Origin: a bacterium
GTDB lineage: Bacteria; UBP15; UBA6099; DSWB01
NCBI GenBank assembly: GCA_020061125.1
Contig: JAGUYV010000022.1
Location: 1-6,387, forward strand
Length of the DNA stretch: 6,387 nt
Reading direction: 5' to 3'
This document shows, piece by piece, positions 1-6,387 of this stretch (the first letter of the stretch is position 1; the number at the start of each line of letters is the position of its first letter). The position numbers and the translations under genes are program-made. The notes under the pieces are model-generated. The model made no database searches. It was not told the DNA's origin and worked only from the letters and a program-made list of their open reading frames with translations.

Positions 1-164
1 GCCGCGAGCGCCCTCACGGCCAGGGGGTGCACCTGCTCCGCGGGCCGCGCGCCCGCGCTGAACACCTCGGCGCGCGCTCCATATCTGTTCCGTATCAACG
101 CTTCAGCCATCTGGCTGCGGCACGAGTTCTGCGTGCAGAGAACGAGGATCCTTGCTGGTTTCAT
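1..164 (-). CDS. arsC: Arsenate reductase ArsC, LMW-phosphatase type (N-terminal part)
   Basis: The first 54 codons of a gene that runs off the left edge of the window. It begins with ATG at 164-162, preceded by an AGGGGG ribosome site 4 nt upstream. The protein starts MKPARILVLCTQNSCRSQMA, which holds the C-x5-R anion-binding P-loop (C10 to R16) with the NSCRS core typical of thioredoxin-coupled arsenate reductases. It continues with a VFSAG-like segment and a VHPLAV segment, both expected in this family. Such enzymes act in the cytoplasm, using the P-loop cysteine as nucleophile and a later cysteine pair to reduce arsenate to arsenite; that pair lies outside the window and cannot be checked. 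It follows the arsenic operon in the same direction but is separated from it by 90 nt holding its own promoter. A general low-molecular-weight tyrosine phosphatase is the alternative, but the NSCRSQMAE signature and the neighbours favour arsenate reductase. Confidence 0.88.
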   Translation of the reverse strand, partial: MKPARILVLCTQNSCRSQMAEALIRNRYGARAEVFSAGARPAEQVHPLAVRALA

Positions 165-205
165 ATTGCCCCCTGTACTTAGGCAATTTGACAACTTTCG
201 AACTA

Positions 206-254: not shown

Positions 255-941
255 TCATATGATTCTGAAAATGAATTTCAAGCAGTAGGAGATCCCGATG
301 ACAATGAACACACAGCCTGTGGCGCGGCGCGCCCAGAGTTCGAATTGTTTGATTCTGTTGAACGCAGCGCCCACCTTTTGAACGCCGAACGCGATAAGGG
401 CAGCGAAGAACAGCACGGGCAGCCCCGTTCCCACGCCGTAGAGAGCGGGCAGCAGCGCGCTGGATTCGTATTTCACGGCCACGGGAATGAGCGTGCCGAA
501 AAACAGGGCTGCGGACACCGGGCAGAAGGTGAGCGCGAACAGAATGCCCAGCAGCCCGGCTCCCCACACCCCATGGCGCTCCGCCCTGTTGCGCAACCCC
601 TGCCCCGCACCCCCGCCGGGCAGATTCATCTGAATCAGTTCAAGCAGAAACATTCCGGCCAGAATCAGAACCGGGCCGAGGATCCGGTTCATATGAGTCT
701 GTAGAAAATGCGACACCGACGGCACATTTAGCAGCCCGGCGACGATGACCGCGCCCAGGCCCATGTAGGTCAGCGTACGGCCAGCGGTGTACAGCATCCC
801 GGCCGCAAACACGCTGGCCGGAATGTCTACCCGCTTTCCGATGTAGGTGATGGCGGCGATGTTGGTTGTCAGAGGACACGGGCTGATGGAGGTGAGAATT
901 CCCAGCCACAGCGCGGTCCCGGCTCCAAGAAGATATTCCAT
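255..941 (-). CDS. arsG: ArsG-family / CcdA-DsbD-like membrane protein
   Basis: A 228-residue integral membrane protein with about six hydrophobic segments. It belongs to the cytochrome c biogenesis/DsbD transmembrane superfamily. The first segment carries SPCPLTTNIAAI (C22) and a later one LTFCPVSAALFFG (C140), matching the paired membrane cysteines that CcdA/DsbD proteins use to pass reducing equivalents across the membrane. The SPCPL-TNIAAI signature, and its place directly after ArsF-like genes, resemble the ArsG family described as an efflux permease for trivalent aromatic arsenicals in arsEFG operons. Efflux, electron transfer or both are possible; the sequence alone cannot decide. The ATG start is fixed by an in-frame stop six codons upstream. 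No good Shine-Dalgarno is visible, and the preceding gene ends 15 nt upstream, so translational coupling is likely. It is the last gene before the arsC promoter. Confidence 0.8.
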   Translation of the reverse strand: MEYLLGAGTALWLGILTSISPCPLTTNIAAITYIGKRVDIPASVFAAGMLYTAGRTLTYMGLGAVIVAGLLNVPSVSHFLQTHMNRILGPVLILAGMFLLELIQMNLPGGGAGQGLRNRAERHGVWGAGLLGILFALTFCPVSAALFFGTLIPVAVKYESSALLPALYGVGTGLPVLFFAALIAFGVQKVGAAFNRIKQFELWARRATGCVFIVIGISYCLKFIFRII

Positions 942-956
942 GGCGCGCGCCCCGGC

Positions 957-1430
957 TCACAGCCAGGCGCGAATCTCCTTTTGCACATATTCGACAAAAG
1001 CCTTTTCGTCGTTCAATCGGGTCCACACTTCTTCAAGATTCTTCCACTTCTTCTGTTCTCCGTTTTCCATGTCCGAGAGCACGAGAGAAATGGACAGAAT
1101 CCGATATTCCTGAATGAAATGCCTGTTCTCTGGCTTATCGAGATCTATGTCGCGCCACACGATGCGCCCGGACTTCATTTCTTCCGGGAACCCGGCCTGC
1201 AGGGCCTTTTGCCCGAGAGCTTCGATGATCTTGCATGAAACGCAGCGCGCCCTGCCGTGGAAGAAATACACGACAAGCGTCCTGCCTTGCGCGGGCGCGG
1301 CCTGTTCGCGCAACACTGTTTGTGCGGGGGCTGGTGCGGGTTCGCCTTGCGCATTTTTATAAATCAGATAACCGGCGGACACGGCTACGAATAACAGCAA
1401 TATCGCGCTTGCAATCGTTTTGATCTTCAT
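957..1430 (-). CDS. arsF: ArsF-like membrane-anchored CxxC thioredoxin-fold protein (copy 2)
   Basis: A 157-residue protein. Residues 5-24 form one hydrophobic segment after a KIK start, most likely an uncleaved anchor. A short Pro/Ala/Gln linker follows to about residue 50, then a single thioredoxin-like domain. The domain opens with LVVYFFHGRARCVSCKIIEA, giving a CVSC redox pair (C63, C66). It ends with KKWKNLEEVW and a final helix rich in charged residues, the pattern of the ArsF family (annotated as nitrophenyl compound nitroreductase subunit ArsF). The domain is expected in the periplasm. ArsF has been linked to reduction of nitrophenyl arsenicals together with ArsE, but the direct chemistry of a CxxC domain is more easily read as thiol-disulfide exchange. 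The gene lies 47 nt after a paralogue and 15 nt before the ArsG-type gene. The ATG start has GGAGG 11 nt upstream, slightly far but usable. Confidence 0.78.
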   Translation of the reverse strand: MKIKTIASAILLLFVAVSAGYLIYKNAQGEPAPAPAQTVLREQAAPAQGRTLVVYFFHGRARCVSCKIIEALGQKALQAGFPEEMKSGRIVWRDIDLDKPENRHFIQEYRILSISLVLSDMENGEQKKWKNLEEVWTRLNDEKAFVEYVQKEIRAWL

Positions 1431-1477
1431 GTTCTGCTTTGCCTCCGCGCCATAGGCGATTCATGCCTGGCATCTGC

Positions 1478-2044
1478 TCACTTCTTCTCACCGCCGGCTT
1501 TGCCCGCATCTTTTTTCTCATCACTTTTCGGCTTCTCATATTTCTGGTCCAGAAAAATCCGCGCCTCTGTTTGAATGTATTCCATGAACTTTTTCTTGTC
1601 CTTCAACAGCGGCCAGACCTCTTCGAGACTCTTCCATGCAATGATCTTGTTTTTATCTTCCCTGGAGTCTTTATAATCCGCCACCACAACGGTTTTGGAC
1701 CTCAATTGGAAATCCTCGACATAATGCCAGTTGCCGTCTTTTTTGACATCCACGGGCATCCAAACCAGACGGCCGGATTTGAGTTCCTTTGCGAATTCCT
1801 TTTCGATGGCTTCTTTGGTGAATTTCTCAATGTTTGTGCACGAAATGCATCTTGGCTCGGTGTAGAGGTAGTAAACCACAACCGTGTGCGTGGCGGCTGG
1901 CGCGGGCTTGGCCTTGGCCGGCTGGGCCGCCGGCGGCTTCTTGCTTCCCGCGCCCCCGGTTTTCTGCGCTGCGCGTGCTACGCCCCCACATGCCATGACA
2001 ATGAATAATACCGCTGCCCAGACACAGGCTGATTTCCTAATCAT
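1478..2044 (-). CDS. arsF: ArsF-like exported CxxC thioredoxin-fold protein (copy 1)
   Basis: A 188-residue paralogue of the next gene. It has a signal peptide (RK at 3-4, hydrophobic core 8-18). Cleavage is plausible after A25 (VARA-A); a poorer lipoprotein alternative is C19 after VMA. A Lys/Pro/Ala linker (about 27-51) leads to a domain starting TVVVYYLYTEPRCISCTNIE with a CISC pair (C66, C69), followed by WKSLEEVWPLL and a terminal helix. It differs from its neighbour in its long linker and a Lys/Glu/Gly-rich tail (about 170-188). The domain shares the order of motifs with the ArsF family (CxxC, then KSGR-VW, then W-K-LEEVW). It is expected to work in the periplasm as a redox partner in the arsenic operon. 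The ATG start has AGGGTG about 4 nt upstream. It begins 36 nt after the YeeE-type gene. Confidence 0.74.
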   Translation of the reverse strand: MIRKSACVWAAVLFIVMACGGVARAAQKTGGAGSKKPPAAQPAKAKPAPAATHTVVVYYLYTEPRCISCTNIEKFTKEAIEKEFAKELKSGRLVWMPVDVKKDGNWHYVEDFQLRSKTVVVADYKDSREDKNKIIAWKSLEEVWPLLKDKKKFMEYIQTEARIFLDQKYEKPKSDEKKDAGKAGGEKK

Positions 2045-2080
2045 TGCGCACCCTTTCCGCGCCGTGGCGCATGCCTTGGT

Positions 2081-3319
2081 TCATCTGCGGCCAAGGTTTA
2101 TTCCGCCGCCCATGAGATAGAAGTATGTGGCGATCCAGTTGGACAGAATCACCACGATTCCGAACAGAAACACACCCGCGCTCATGAGCGCCCAGCCGGA
2201 CATGATGTTGCCGATCACGCAACCGGTCGCGAGGGCCGCGCCAGCGCCAACCATGAAGCCGCCGAATATGGCGCCCACAATCTGCTCCGGCGGTTTCGGC
2301 AGGAGCCGCGCCTGCCCGGACAACGCGCCCGCAATGAACGCGCCTGGCAGCATGCCCAGCACCACGAGCACCAGCCACCACACGACTTTTTTATCCTGCG
2401 GGGCCTCGGATTTCTTTGGAGCGGCTTGTGCCGCGGCCGTCGGGGCCGCCGCCGCTTTTTTGTAAACGAATTTTGCGGGGGTGTCCGTCAGCAGTATCTG
2501 CGCCTGCAACACGCCGTGCGTGACGCCCAGCGGGTAATTCCTGCCGCTCATGTCGGAAGAAATGTAGGCGAAGAGCGCCAGCGCGCCGATGGCCAGTCCC
2601 GCCTGCCAGGGTTTCCAGGGCTGCGTCAGCGCGCGCTTCAATGACGGCGGTTTCGCGCGTTCGTTCCCGGCGGGCTTTTTCTTCGGCTTGTTCCGCGCCC
2701 ATGCGATGGCCACGGCGGCCAGCGTGAGCGCCGCAAAGCCAACGGCGAGCGTGGTGAAAGAAAGTCCGGTGAGCGAGGACAGGGTTACCGGTCCGCCGTC
2801 CGCAGCCGCGATCTTTTTCGAGGTCATGCTTTCAAACCAGCCATGCAAGGGTCCGTATTCAACCAGCCCGATTCCAAACGGCATGGCTGCCAGCGCGGCG
2901 ATGGAATTCACATTGCCCGTGGCCGATTTGTACAGGCAGCCGCTCACACAGCCGCCGGCAAGCACGGAACCCACTCCGAATATCACGCCGCCCACGATGT
3001 AGTTCAGCCAGATCATCGGCTTGGGAGCAAGCTGCACCAGCCCCATTCTGTCGCCAACGGCGAATGCGAGCATGGAGACCACGATGGCGGCCCACAGCCC
3101 GAAAATCTTCCGCCCATCCTTCATGATGATGACTTCACTGAATGCGGACGCGCCGCACAGGTCTCCCTTTTGCAGAAAAAATCCGAAAAGAAACCCGGCC
3201 GGAAGCGCGGTCAGAACCCAGAGCTTTGTTGCGACAGCCGCCACAGCCGTGGCGGCTATAATGATGATTCCAATCAAAGAAAGACCAATCCAGTTCCCTG
3301 ATGCTTTGGAACGCGCCAT
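2081..3319 (-). CDS. YeeE/YedE-family transporter (thiosulfate/sulfur-transport type)
   Basis: A 412-residue polytopic inner-membrane protein. It has the internal two-half architecture of YeeE/YedE proteins: GFLFGFFLQKGDLCG (C55) and GSVLAGGCVSGCLYK (C124, C128) in the first half, and GAGAALATGCVIGN (C367) in the second. These glycine-flanked cysteines match those that line the path in characterised thiosulfate importers (TsuA) of this family, where thiosulfate is passed by cysteine contacts. Residues about 285-313 are a Lys/Ala/Pro-rich low-complexity stretch between transmembrane segments, which makes this member longer than the usual roughly 350 residues. Substrate here is unknown; thiosulfate, sulfane sulfur or a thio-arsenic species are possibilities inferred only from the setting. 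ATG start with GGGAG 7-8 nt upstream; it begins 19 nt after the small Trx gene, within the arsenic operon. Confidence 0.82.
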   Translation of the reverse strand: MARSKASGNWIGLSLIGIIIIAATAVAAVATKLWVLTALPAGFLFGFFLQKGDLCGASAFSEVIIMKDGRKIFGLWAAIVVSMLAFAVGDRMGLVQLAPKPMIWLNYIVGGVIFGVGSVLAGGCVSGCLYKSATGNVNSIAALAAMPFGIGLVEYGPLHGWFESMTSKKIAAADGGPVTLSSLTGLSFTTLAVGFAALTLAAVAIAWARNKPKKKPAGNERAKPPSLKRALTQPWKPWQAGLAIGALALFAYISSDMSGRNYPLGVTHGVLQAQILLTDTPAKFVYKKAAAAPTAAAQAAPKKSEAPQDKKVVWWLVLVVLGMLPGAFIAGALSGQARLLPKPPEQIVGAIFGGFMVGAGAALATGCVIGNIMSGWALMSAGVFLFGIVVILSNWIATYFYLMGGGINLGRR

Positions 3320-3338
3320 GAGAAAACTCCCTGAAAAT

Positions 3339-3572
3339 TCATCCGATGAGCTTTTTGATGTCGCCCGGGCCGAGCAGTTTGCCCGTGGATTTCACCTGCC
3401 CGTCCACGCACAGCGCCGGGGTCATCATCACGCCGCGCGCGGTAATCTGCTTGATGTCCTCGACTTTTTCAATCTCGATGTCGTCGCGGCCCAGTTCCCT
3501 TGCCGCGGCCTTCGCGTTCTCGTACAGCTTCTTGCATTTGGCGCAGCCCGTGCCAAGAATCTCGATCTTCAT
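3339..3572 (-). CDS. Small thioredoxin-like redox protein (CAKC active site)
   Basis: A 77-residue protein with no signal peptide, so cytoplasmic. It belongs to the small 'redox-active disulfide protein 2' thioredoxin group. The sequence opens MKIEILGTGCAKCKKLYENA, with the CAKC pair at C10 and C13 after the first beta strand. GVMMTPAL around residues 47-54 supplies the cis-proline before beta 3, and GKLLGPGDIKKLI forms the C-terminal helix. Members of this group very often sit next to PF03773-type permeases, as here, 24 nt after the ArsP-like gene. Likely roles are reductant for the permease or ArsC, or chaperone of a thiol-bound trivalent arsenical to the permease. Whether it corresponds to the ArsE component of arsEFG systems I cannot tell. 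ATG start with GGAGG 8 nt upstream. Confidence 0.85.
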   Translation of the reverse strand: MKIEILGTGCAKCKKLYENAKAAARELGRDDIEIEKVEDIKQITARGVMMTPALCVDGQVKSTGKLLGPGDIKKLIG

Positions 3573-3596: not shown

Positions 3597-4766
3597 TCAA
3601 ACGATGATTGCATTGAACAAATAACCCACAGCCAGGATGCCCAGCCCGACCACGGCCGCGAACACGGCGATCAGCCTGGGCTTGAGCACCTTTCGAAGAA
3701 TCACGAATTCAGGAAGCGAGAGCGTTATGACCGCCATCATGAACGCCAGCACCGTGCCCAGAGCCGCTCCTTTTTCGAGCAAAGCCTGGACTACGGGTAT
3801 AATCCCCGCCGCATTGGAGTACATGGGAATGCCGAACAAAACGGCGGCGGGAACCGACCACCATGCGTCTTTGCCCATGATGGACGCCATGAAGTTTTCG
3901 GGCACATAGCCGTGTATGCCCGCTCCCACTGCGATGCCCGCAAGAACGAATGGCCAGACTTTGCCCACAATCTCGCGCACCGCATTCAGTCCGTAGCTCA
4001 CCCGGTCCGGCCATGTGAGTTGCGCATCCTCGCCCGATTCGCCGATCTGCGTCTCGAAAACCCAATCCTCTATTCCCTTTTCCATGCGCAGCCGGCCGAT
4101 GGTCCATCCCGCAAACATAGCGATGAACAATCCGGTGCCAAGATACAGGGCCGCCACTTTCCAGCCAAACAGACCGTAGAGCAGCACCAGCGCCACCTCA
4201 TTCACCATGGGCGCGGAAATCAGGAACGAAAAAGTCACCCCCAGCGGAATGCCGGTTGTCACAAACCCGATGAAAAGAGGAACCGCCGAGCAGGAACAAA
4301 ACGGCGTCACGATACCGAGCAACGCCGCAAGCACATTACCGAACGACTCGTGCCGGCCCTCGAGAATCCTTCGCGTGCGTTCGGGCGTAAAGAAGGATCG
4401 GATGATTCCAACGCCGAATACAACCAGGGTCAACAGCATCAACACCTTGGGCGTGTCATACAAAAAGAACTCCACGGACGACCCCAGCCTGGTTCCTTCC
4501 TTCAAATGCAACGCGCCGTATGTGATCCATTTTGATATGGTCTCCAGCTCGCGATACAAAAGCCACCACAAAAAGAGCGCCGGGGCGATGAGCGCGAGCC
4601 TCGTGAACGAAGCGCGCTTGTGCCCGCCCCCAGATACCGGCGCGTCACTGGTTTTGCATGAACATGCGCAACCCGTTTCTTTGTCTGTTTTTGAGTCCAC
4701 CCTGTGCACCTTTTCTGTACCCGTGATCTTCCCGCGGGCGTCTTTGTGTGAAAAGCGATTATCCAA
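3597..4766 (-). CDS. arsP: ArsP-type permease (PF03773 family) with Cys-rich N-terminal tail
   Basis: A 389-residue polytopic membrane protein of the predicted-permease family that includes ArsP, the exporter of trivalent organoarsenicals. Hallmarks visible are TPFCSCSAVPLFIG (C157, C159) in a transmembrane segment, followed by SAPMVNEVALVLLYGLFGW, and later GIPMYSNAAGIIPV and LPEFVILRKVL. The cysteines in the FCSCS motif are plausible arsenical ligands. The N-terminal tail of about 50 residues before the first membrane segment carries a CACSC cluster (C33, C35, C37), which could bind metal or arsenical. The start used is TTG at 4766 with GGAG about 5 nt upstream, overlapping the arsR stop by 8 nt. 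GTG codons at 4709 and 4700 are alternatives that keep the Cys cluster. Assignment to ArsP rather than another branch of the family is by context, so the symbol is moderately secure. Confidence 0.8.
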   Translation of the reverse strand: MDNRFSHKDARGKITGTEKVHRVDSKTDKETGCACSCKTSDAPVSGGGHKRASFTRLALIAPALFLWWLLYRELETISKWITYGALHLKEGTRLGSSVEFFLYDTPKVLMLLTLVVFGVGIIRSFFTPERTRRILEGRHESFGNVLAALLGIVTPFCSCSAVPLFIGFVTTGIPLGVTFSFLISAPMVNEVALVLLYGLFGWKVAALYLGTGLFIAMFAGWTIGRLRMEKGIEDWVFETQIGESGEDAQLTWPDRVSYGLNAVREIVGKVWPFVLAGIAVGAGIHGYVPENFMASIMGKDAWWSVPAAVLFGIPMYSNAAGIIPVVQALLEKGAALGTVLAFMMAVITLSLPEFVILRKVLKPRLIAVFAAVVGLGILAVGYLFNAIIV

Positions 4767-5079
4767 CCGACTCCATCTGCTTTACAGCCGCCGTTTTAAT
4801 CACCGCCTCCACGCAGCCGAAGAAATTCAGCACGCACGGAACGCACAGCGAATAGTACACCTGGGTCCCGCGCTTTTCATCGGACACGATGCCCGCGGCC
4901 TTGAGCACGGAAAGGTGCCGGGACACCGTGGACATGTCCGCGTTGATTTTTTCCGTAAGCTCGCACACGCACCGCTCGCCCTCATTGAGCAGATCCACGA
5001 TATAGAGCCGGGAGGGATGCGCCAGCGCCTTGATGATTCTGGCCCTGGCCTCGTATTTCGCCCTGGTTTTCTGGTCCAT
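4759..5079 (-). CDS. arsR: ArsR/SmtB-family arsenic-responsive repressor
   Basis: A 106-residue winged-helix repressor expected to release its operator when it binds trivalent arsenic. LAHPSRLYIVDLL begins the DNA-binding fold, and MSTVSRHLSVLKAAGIVSDE (49-68) holds the recognition helix and the start of the wing. The ELCVC-type metal site is present as ERCVCEL (C37, C39), the pair used by classical ArsR. The C-terminal helix adds C79, C82 and C89 in a SLCVPC...FFGC segment, so a third or alternative thiolate ligand is available. I chose ATG at 5079: AAGGTG lies 6 nt upstream. A GTG at 5088 is in frame but has its ribosome site only 3 nt away. The stop overlaps the start of the permease gene by 8 nt, indicating translational coupling. 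A promoter and palindromes lie immediately upstream, so autoregulation is expected. Confidence 0.92.
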   Translation of the reverse strand: MDQKTRAKYEARARIIKALAHPSRLYIVDLLNEGERCVCELTEKINADMSTVSRHLSVLKAAGIVSDEKRGTQVYYSLCVPCVLNFFGCVEAVIKTAAVKQMESVG

Positions 5080-5085
5080 GCCCGC

Positions 5086-5091
5086 CACCTT
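5086..5091 (-). promoter_or_regulatory. Ribosome binding site deciding the arsR start
   Basis: AAGGTG on the minus strand ends 6 nt before the ATG at 5079. This good spacing favours that ATG over the in-frame GTG at 5088-5086, which would itself overlap this site and have only a GAGG 3 nt upstream. Confidence 0.6.
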
Positions 5092-5470: not shown

Positions 5471-6387
5471 ATGCAGATAGTTGAATATATAAGACAATTT
5501 ACATTACACCTGATTATAACCTGTATAGTTTCAGGAGCGCAATGTTACAACAATTGCCAAGCTTATAAGACCATAACCGAAAAGGATTCTGTTTTCGAGC
5601 CAATCTACTCTAAGAGCTATTCTTTCGAAGGCGATTCATTGAATTTGGAGAAATCCGCAATTGTTCTAAGTAACGGAGACAATCGATTTGATTATGAAAC
5701 ATGCCATCCGATTGTAACGCTGCTTTATCACGGGAGAGATGCTATCGTTTGTATTGCAATATGGGCTGGACATCCAGGAGATTTATGGATCGTTATTAAT
5801 GATGATGGCGAATGGTCAATTCCTTATTTTACTGGGAAAAGAATTAATGATTTTCTTGATGAAAGATATAAAGATTTGGCTGTTCCACTCATATTCTTTA
5901 AATTACAGACAACTCCGGAAGAAGTCATTGTAAAAGACGACCTTCTTTCCTTGAAACTCGAATTCCAATCAGAAGAAGGGTTTATATCAAATTCAGTTGA
6001 TATCGATTTGAAGGATATTCAAAAGGATACTGACGCAGACGGAGCAACAGATTTATTTGAGGATCGAATCGGAACATCAGTGAATAGCAACGATACAGAT
6101 GGTGATGGCATAGATGATTTACACGACACAAACCCTCAGGCTTCATTCAAAGAGTACAGTGAAAACTGTGCCATTTATAATTTGATTGCAGAGAATTACC
6201 AAACTTCAGATGCGATTATTATTTCGGAATTCCCACAAAATGAACATTGCACACTGGTAGGTATTAACAGGCCTGTAGTAAATCTTCATATTGACATCTG
6301 CATAAGTAATGCAATAAACTTGAGTAACGAGCTTGGAGGTTACTCAAGATGCGGCCCAATGGAACAGCCAAAGCACTGGAACAAAGA
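5471..6387 (+). CDS. Exported protein with thrombospondin type 3-like Ca2+ repeats (C-terminus cut off)
   Basis: An open frame of 305 codons that continues past the window. It starts with ATG at 5471, six nt after GGTG, and a stop lies two codons upstream, so no earlier start is possible. Residues about 9-23 are hydrophobic after an arginine and look like a signal peptide; C25 does not sit in a proper lipobox. Residues 31-180 are an unrecognised, probably beta-rich region. Residues 186-222 hold two acidic loops, DTDADGATDLFEDRIGT and NDTDGDGIDDLHDTNP, the DxDxDGxxD pattern of thrombospondin type 3/EF-hand-like calcium-binding repeats common in secreted bacterial proteins. The following part (223-305) has several cysteines and no recognised domain. 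Codon use is AT-rich, quite unlike the arsenic genes. It is divergent from arsR and has no evident link to arsenic. Function unknown. Confidence 0.8.
   Translation, partial: MQIVEYIRQFTLHLIITCIVSGAQCYNNCQAYKTITEKDSVFEPIYSKSYSFEGDSLNLEKSAIVLSNGDNRFDYETCHPIVTLLYHGRDAIVCIAIWAGHPGDLWIVINDDGEWSIPYFTGKRINDFLDERYKDLAVPLIFFKLQTTPEEVIVKDDLLSLKLEFQSEEGFISNSVDIDLKDIQKDTDADGATDLFEDRIGTSVNSNDTDGDGIDDLHDTNPQASFKEYSENCAIYNLIAENYQTSDAIIISEFPQNEHCTLVGINRPVVNLHIDICISNAINLSNELGGYSRCGPMEQPKHWNK

Follow-up and report, generated by a model that had tools for sequence, protein, structure and literature searches.

An arsenic resistance operon with a possible CcdA/DsbD-kind trans-membrane dithiol relay

Gene content of the ars operon

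The DNA stretch analysed here, referred to as the window, comprises 6,387 bp of contig JAGUYV010000022.1 from a bacterium of the UBP15 lineage (assembly GCA_020061125.1). The source genome is represented by 513 contigs at 79% completeness, and the one analysed here breaks off inside an arsC gene. Judged from its sequence, the minus strand of the window carries a single ars operon. An ArsR/SmtB repressor of 109 aa with an RCVCEL cysteine pair is encoded at 4759..5088 (NF033788, 91.4 bits, cut-off 55; PF01022). It is followed by an ArsP_1-type permease of 389 aa with a TTG start and an FCSCS motif (3597..4766; PF03773, 253 bits). The next gene (3339..3572; PF13192) encodes a cytoplasmic thioredoxin of 77 aa from the ArsE family, with the motif GTGCAKC and a cis-proline, P52. 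It is the candidate electron donor. A YeeE/YedE-type sulphur transporter (Sulf_transp) of 412 aa lies between the thioredoxin and ArsF (2081..3319; PF04143, 194.5 bits). Two ArsF-like proteins predicted to be exported are encoded at 1478..2044 and 957..1430. The former has a CISC motif and threonine at the cis-proline position, and the latter, a thioredoxin-fold protein, has a CVSC motif (C63, C66) and Ser115 at this position. ArsG is encoded at 255..941 and is a CcdA/DsbD-type protein of 228 aa with six transmembrane segments (TM) and the cysteines C22 and C140 (PF13386/PF02683). Last comes the start, about 64 codons, of an ArsC of the low-molecular-weight-phosphatase type (3..194; PF01451, 40.6 bits). 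It carries CTQNSCRS, a motif typical of thioredoxin-coupled ArsC reductases, and its NF010053 score is below the cut-off because the gene is truncated by the contig end.

The first-pass annotation of the window had placed a thioredoxin at 3572-3339, a membrane protein at 941-255 and two exported proteins at 2044-957. The NCBIfam and Pfam assignments agree with these placements, and the CAKC, the exported CxxC pairs and C22/C140 were found as described there. The YeeE protein (3319-2081) and the ArsC start were absent from that account. The usual gene order among the compared loci is arsR-arsP-Trx-arsF-arsG. No counterpart of the 412-aa YeeE protein was found in the other loci compared (phmmer, 1e-6), and the gene is probably an insertion particular to the window operon among these loci. 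The score of this protein was far under the cut-off for the thiosulfate transporter TsuA. On the divergent strand an open frame of 305 aa (5471-6385, plus strand) is ended by the window edge. It contains TSP3-like DTDxDG repeats and had no match in Pfam or NCBIfam.

ArsG, ArsF and the ArsE-type thioredoxin

ArsG scored 287.5 bits against the curated NF040495 cut-off of 200. The Pfam gathering scores were also exceeded for DsbD_2 (57.8, threshold 24.9) and DsbD_TM (28.9, threshold 27.1). The two cysteines lie in the contexts SPC22PL and FC140PV. Both are invariant in 40/40 aligned ArsG and ArsG-like proteins, where they are within 13 invariant columns. The other cysteines, C210 and C220, are conserved in just 1/40 and 7/40 proteins, respectively. 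The first-pass annotation had staked its proposal on the invariance of C22 and C140 in the ArsG clade, and as both are conserved the refutation from sequence that it named did not occur. C140 had seemed to be lost in 7/57 proteins, but these were different proteins of CcdA type that had been misaligned; their TM4 cysteine is kept in a shifted register (GPCT, SLPCN/SLACN). ArsG is present in two frames (86 and 64 aa) at L091:6978-7474, which is probably a frameshift.

Single-sequence PDB searches with ArsG and with ArsF gave nothing useful. A profile of the 40 ArsG and ArsG-like proteins had a single PDB sequence match, which was CcdA (5vkv, E 8.6e-6). The AlphaFold model of ArsG, built with 40 sequences, had a pLDDT of 85. 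In this model TM1 is broken at residues 19-20 and TM4 at 138-140, beside C22 and C140. CcdA 5vkv was the first-ranked Foldseek match to the model with a probability of 1.00 and a TM-score of only 0.41 against the NMR model. VIA-align gave a Z of 6.0 to CcdA, not above that to RNF/NQR subunits, and CcdA did not stand out. The fold match is therefore drawn from the sequence profile and Foldseek. Kinship of ArsG to CcdA is good by these two measures while VIA-align leaves the fold unsettled. The distribution of positive charge places the N-terminus outside and loops 1-2, 3-4 and 5-6 in the cytoplasm in 40/40 ArsG and ArsG-like proteins. ArsG was the sole full-length DsbD_TM/DsbD_2 match when its own genome was scanned for another relay, a weak negative because the genome is 79% complete.

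Both ArsF proteins of the window scored above the NF040494 cut-off of 60, with 112.5 bits (957..1430) and 88.1 bits (1478..2044). Each has one CxxC and an N-terminal hydrophobic signal or anchor segment. Such a segment, judged by hydropathy and not by a trained predictor, is found in 53/57 ArsF proteins. Three of the remaining four have a doubtful start or a frame cut by a contig end, and the fourth is weak. ArsF appears to be exported. The model of the protein at 957..1430 (pLDDT 91) is a thioredoxin fold behind an N-terminal helix, with a Z of about 10 to thioredoxins. The residues R62-C63-x-x-C66-x-x-x-E70 are nearly invariant and the CxxC is present in 44-45/46 sequences. Residue 115, before the third core strand, is Ser in 35, Thr in 5, Cys in 3, Ala in 2 and Gln in 1 of the 46. 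No proline was found at positions 110-119 in any of them, and ArsF lacks the cis-proline of a classical thioredoxin. A search of ArsF for a domain that binds flavin or NAD(P)H found none. Direct binding of As(III)-type compounds by ArsF is possible because no cis-proline adjoins the CxxC. Second ArsF copies at L092:3045-3611, L093:6955-7512 and L094:4289-4837 are without one or both CxxC cysteines. The thioredoxin neighbours in L093 and L094 are also without the resolving cysteine (CRESE, CRESD), as if the whole side branch had turned non-redox.

The 77-aa thioredoxin scored 94.7 bits for TIGR00412, the MTH895/ArsE family (cut-off 62), and retains CAKC. The proline corresponding to P52 is present in 54/54 family members.

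Recurrence and co-inheritance

The survey covered 386 genomes of relatives, almost all of them outside the order of the window. ArsG was found in 42/386 genomes (34 above the cut-off) and ArsF also in 42/386 (41 above the cut-off). ArsF was present in 33 of the 34 genomes with a clear ArsG, and in the exception, G006, a contig end falls at the ArsG gene. Independent occurrence would put ArsF in about 3.6 of the 34 (34 x 41/386). Chance co-location of ArsF and ArsG was ruled out by these counts. The ArsE-type thioredoxin was present in all 33 genomes with ArsF and a clear ArsG, compared to 149/386 overall. It was also paired with ArsP, in the absence of ArsF and ArsG, in at least 28 genomes, a figure read by eye from the survey tables. 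Four loci (L068, L077, L066 and L003) encode thioredoxin, ArsF and ArsG without an adjoining ArsP. No ArsP was found at E 1e-20 in the genomes G145 and G282, which contain L066 and L077, respectively.

Pairwise distances were compared across 32 operons. The ArsF and ArsG matrices were correlated with r = 0.63 and a partial r of 0.61 given ArsP, while other pairs of operon genes ranged from 0.15 to 0.41. For the thioredoxin and ArsG r was 0.24, where a protein of 77 aa gives noisy distances. The correlation supports a partnership of ArsF and ArsG. It does not by itself support the thioredoxin as donor, and adjacent genes tend to travel together. No ArsF-ArsG fusions stood out in an unsystematic look at the ORF lists. 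Proteins with a DGC domain (PF08859) were seen inside or beside such operons in 4 of 44 neighbours scanned, for example at L064:6141-6527.

In four genomes (loci L093, L094, L099 and L100) a DsbD-type membrane domain lies near ArsF in the place of ArsG. The assignment was made by PF02683 for L100 and by PRK00293 matches for L094 and L100. These domains form a separate, well-supported branch of the tree (100/97), and an extra thioredoxin (PF00085) lies beside the domain in all four loci. The constant element is a membrane thiol carrier and not the ArsG lineage. A sister group of ArsG without ArsF comprises seven proteins (99/95), with both cysteines kept wherever the protein is complete. The member in L059 adjoins CcmF, the one in L062 adjoins an exported redoxin, and others have multicopper oxidases or copper-type ATPases in their vicinity. 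ArsF-like genes with no CcdA gene or ArsP seen nearby occur at L095-L097, in two genomes of family f111 (G250 and G377). A calcineurin-like phosphoesterase gene adjoins ArsF in L095 and L096. At L098:7271-8279, near a contig end, the gene directly after ArsP, thioredoxin and ArsF encodes not ArsG but an NADPH-dependent FMN reductase (PF03358). This locus is the best support seen for a flavin link.

A proposed relay, its rivals and known systems

We judge it somewhat probable that these genes specify a dedicated dithiol relay across the membrane, of the same kind as CcdA/DsbD. Electrons would pass from the thioredoxin through ArsG to the exported ArsF proteins and on to arsenicals or their binding partners. 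At the cytoplasmic side ArsG would receive electrons, most likely from the 77-aa CAKC thioredoxin, with the thioredoxin reductase of the cell as the ultimate source. The C22/C140 pair would carry them across the membrane to the CxxC in each ArsF protein. Once reduced, ArsF would act on arsenicals, or on arsenical-binding partners, at the outer side of the membrane. The computational results cover the gene set, the family kinships, the fold and export of ArsF, the topology and invariant cysteines of ArsG, the co-inheritance and the DsbD-type replacement; the direction of electron flow, the thioredoxin as donor and an arsenical as substrate are inferred. The first-pass annotation had proposed a DsbD-type relay. 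That proposal is partly supported, in that the CcdA kinship and topology of ArsG, the predicted export of ArsF, the co-inheritance of the two and the DsbD-type replacement are all consistent with it. Its cytoplasmic end held up less well as the thioredoxin is not tied to ArsF and ArsG. The role of donor to ArsG is plausible but weaker for this protein, because the same thioredoxin accompanies ArsP in many genomes without ArsF or ArsG. The relay is further favoured by G145 and G282, with the three-gene set and no ArsP found, and by the CcmF and redoxin neighbours of the ArsG sister group. Counting against it are the FCP form of the second ArsG motif, the ArsF-like proteins of family f111 with no CcdA gene seen nearby, and the efflux role for which Chen 2019 is cited. 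A bolder form, which is regarded as doubtful, makes ArsF a distinct exported class of thioredoxin fold. Its CxxC, freed by the loss of the cis-proline, would bind trivalent arsenicals on the outer side of the membrane, and the CcdA-type ArsG would keep it reduced. Detoxification would then be powered across the membrane by cytoplasmic thiols and not by efflux alone.

Two other accounts of these genes were weighed. In line with the published assignment, ArsG may be a permease that exports trivalent amino-aromatic arsenicals, the substrate given in the family name. ArsE and ArsF would jointly form the nitroreductase that produces this substrate. The cysteines shared with CcdA would then be either inherited remnants or residues that bind arsenic along the route of transport. 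The NCBIfam family names agree with a permease and nitroreductase, and the FMN reductase that follows ArsF in L098 is a possible nitroreductase partner. PMC9144182, citing Chen 2019 as the source, also puts ArsG among efflux transporters and lists ArsE and ArsF under organoarsenical resistance. ArsF however fits a cytoplasmic nitroreductase poorly, because it is apparently exported and has a thioredoxin fold, with neither a flavin- nor an NAD(P)H-binding domain found. The invariance of both ArsG cysteines and the ability of a DsbD-type domain to substitute for ArsG also argue against this account, which is considered unlikely.

The thioredoxin could alternatively be the donor for a thioredoxin-coupled ArsC or a partner of ArsP, with ArsG and ArsF as a separate, general pair maintaining exported thiols and sharing only the regulator. 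The genomes in which the thioredoxin is found with ArsP alone are in keeping with such a division, as are the CTQNSCRS motif of ArsC and the low thioredoxin-ArsG distance correlation. ArsC was also the thioredoxin target preferred by Castillo and Saier 2010 (PMC2963123). They presumed a cytoplasmic target when arguing against trans-membrane flow, whereas ArsF is predicted to be exported. The thioredoxin is moreover enriched to 33/33 where ArsF and a clear ArsG occur, and G145 and G282 retain thioredoxin, ArsF and ArsG with no ArsP found. A split of this kind is thought quite improbable.

If the relay is real, the supposed working of the ArsE-ArsF-ArsG arsenic genes changes and arsenic resistance gains a mechanism working on the outer side of the membrane. 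The range of CcdA-type proteins would extend past cytochrome c and disulphide repair. Public annotation names ArsE, ArsF and ArsG as nitroreductase and permease, and many automatic annotations would mislead. The proposed relay role of ArsG is testable with simple cysteine mutants.

ArsG resembles CcdA of Thermus (PDB 5vkv) in its six TM, in the single cysteine in each of TM1 and TM4 and in the outside N-terminus predicted from charge. It differs in its second motif, which is FCP compared to the PC of CcdA and DsbD, and in its occurrence in ars operons with ArsF and not with cytochrome c genes. Sequence similarity is low and the VIA-align Z is modest. Reductases of the DsbD/ScsB type share the cytoplasmic thioredoxin, the two-cysteine membrane domain and a periplasmic acceptor of thioredoxin fold. 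The parts of the proposed relay are separate genes in the window whereas those of DsbD/ScsB form one fused protein. No DsbD-alpha domain was seen and the acceptor ArsF has no cis-proline. The thioredoxin, ArsF and ArsG of the window all scored above curated NCBIfam cut-offs and in this respect match ArsEFG of Shewanella putrefaciens (Chen 2019). The window differs in its doubled ArsF and inserted YeeE gene. The functional reading published for the Shewanella genes is reported to be a nitroreductase plus a permease and not a relay.

The available text of Castillo and Saier 2010 describes CcdA, thioredoxin and redox-active disulfide protein 2 in 8 instances of ars operons and suggests a DsbD-like role. 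It ties the set to cytoplasmic ArsC and judges trans-membrane flow less likely. That text does not note the export of ArsF, the absence of its cis-proline or the DsbD-type replacement of ArsG. The relay idea is partly published; what is added here is that the acceptor is exported, that it has no cis-proline and that a DsbD-type domain can stand in for ArsG. The present proposal is a sharper, testable form of the older suggestion.
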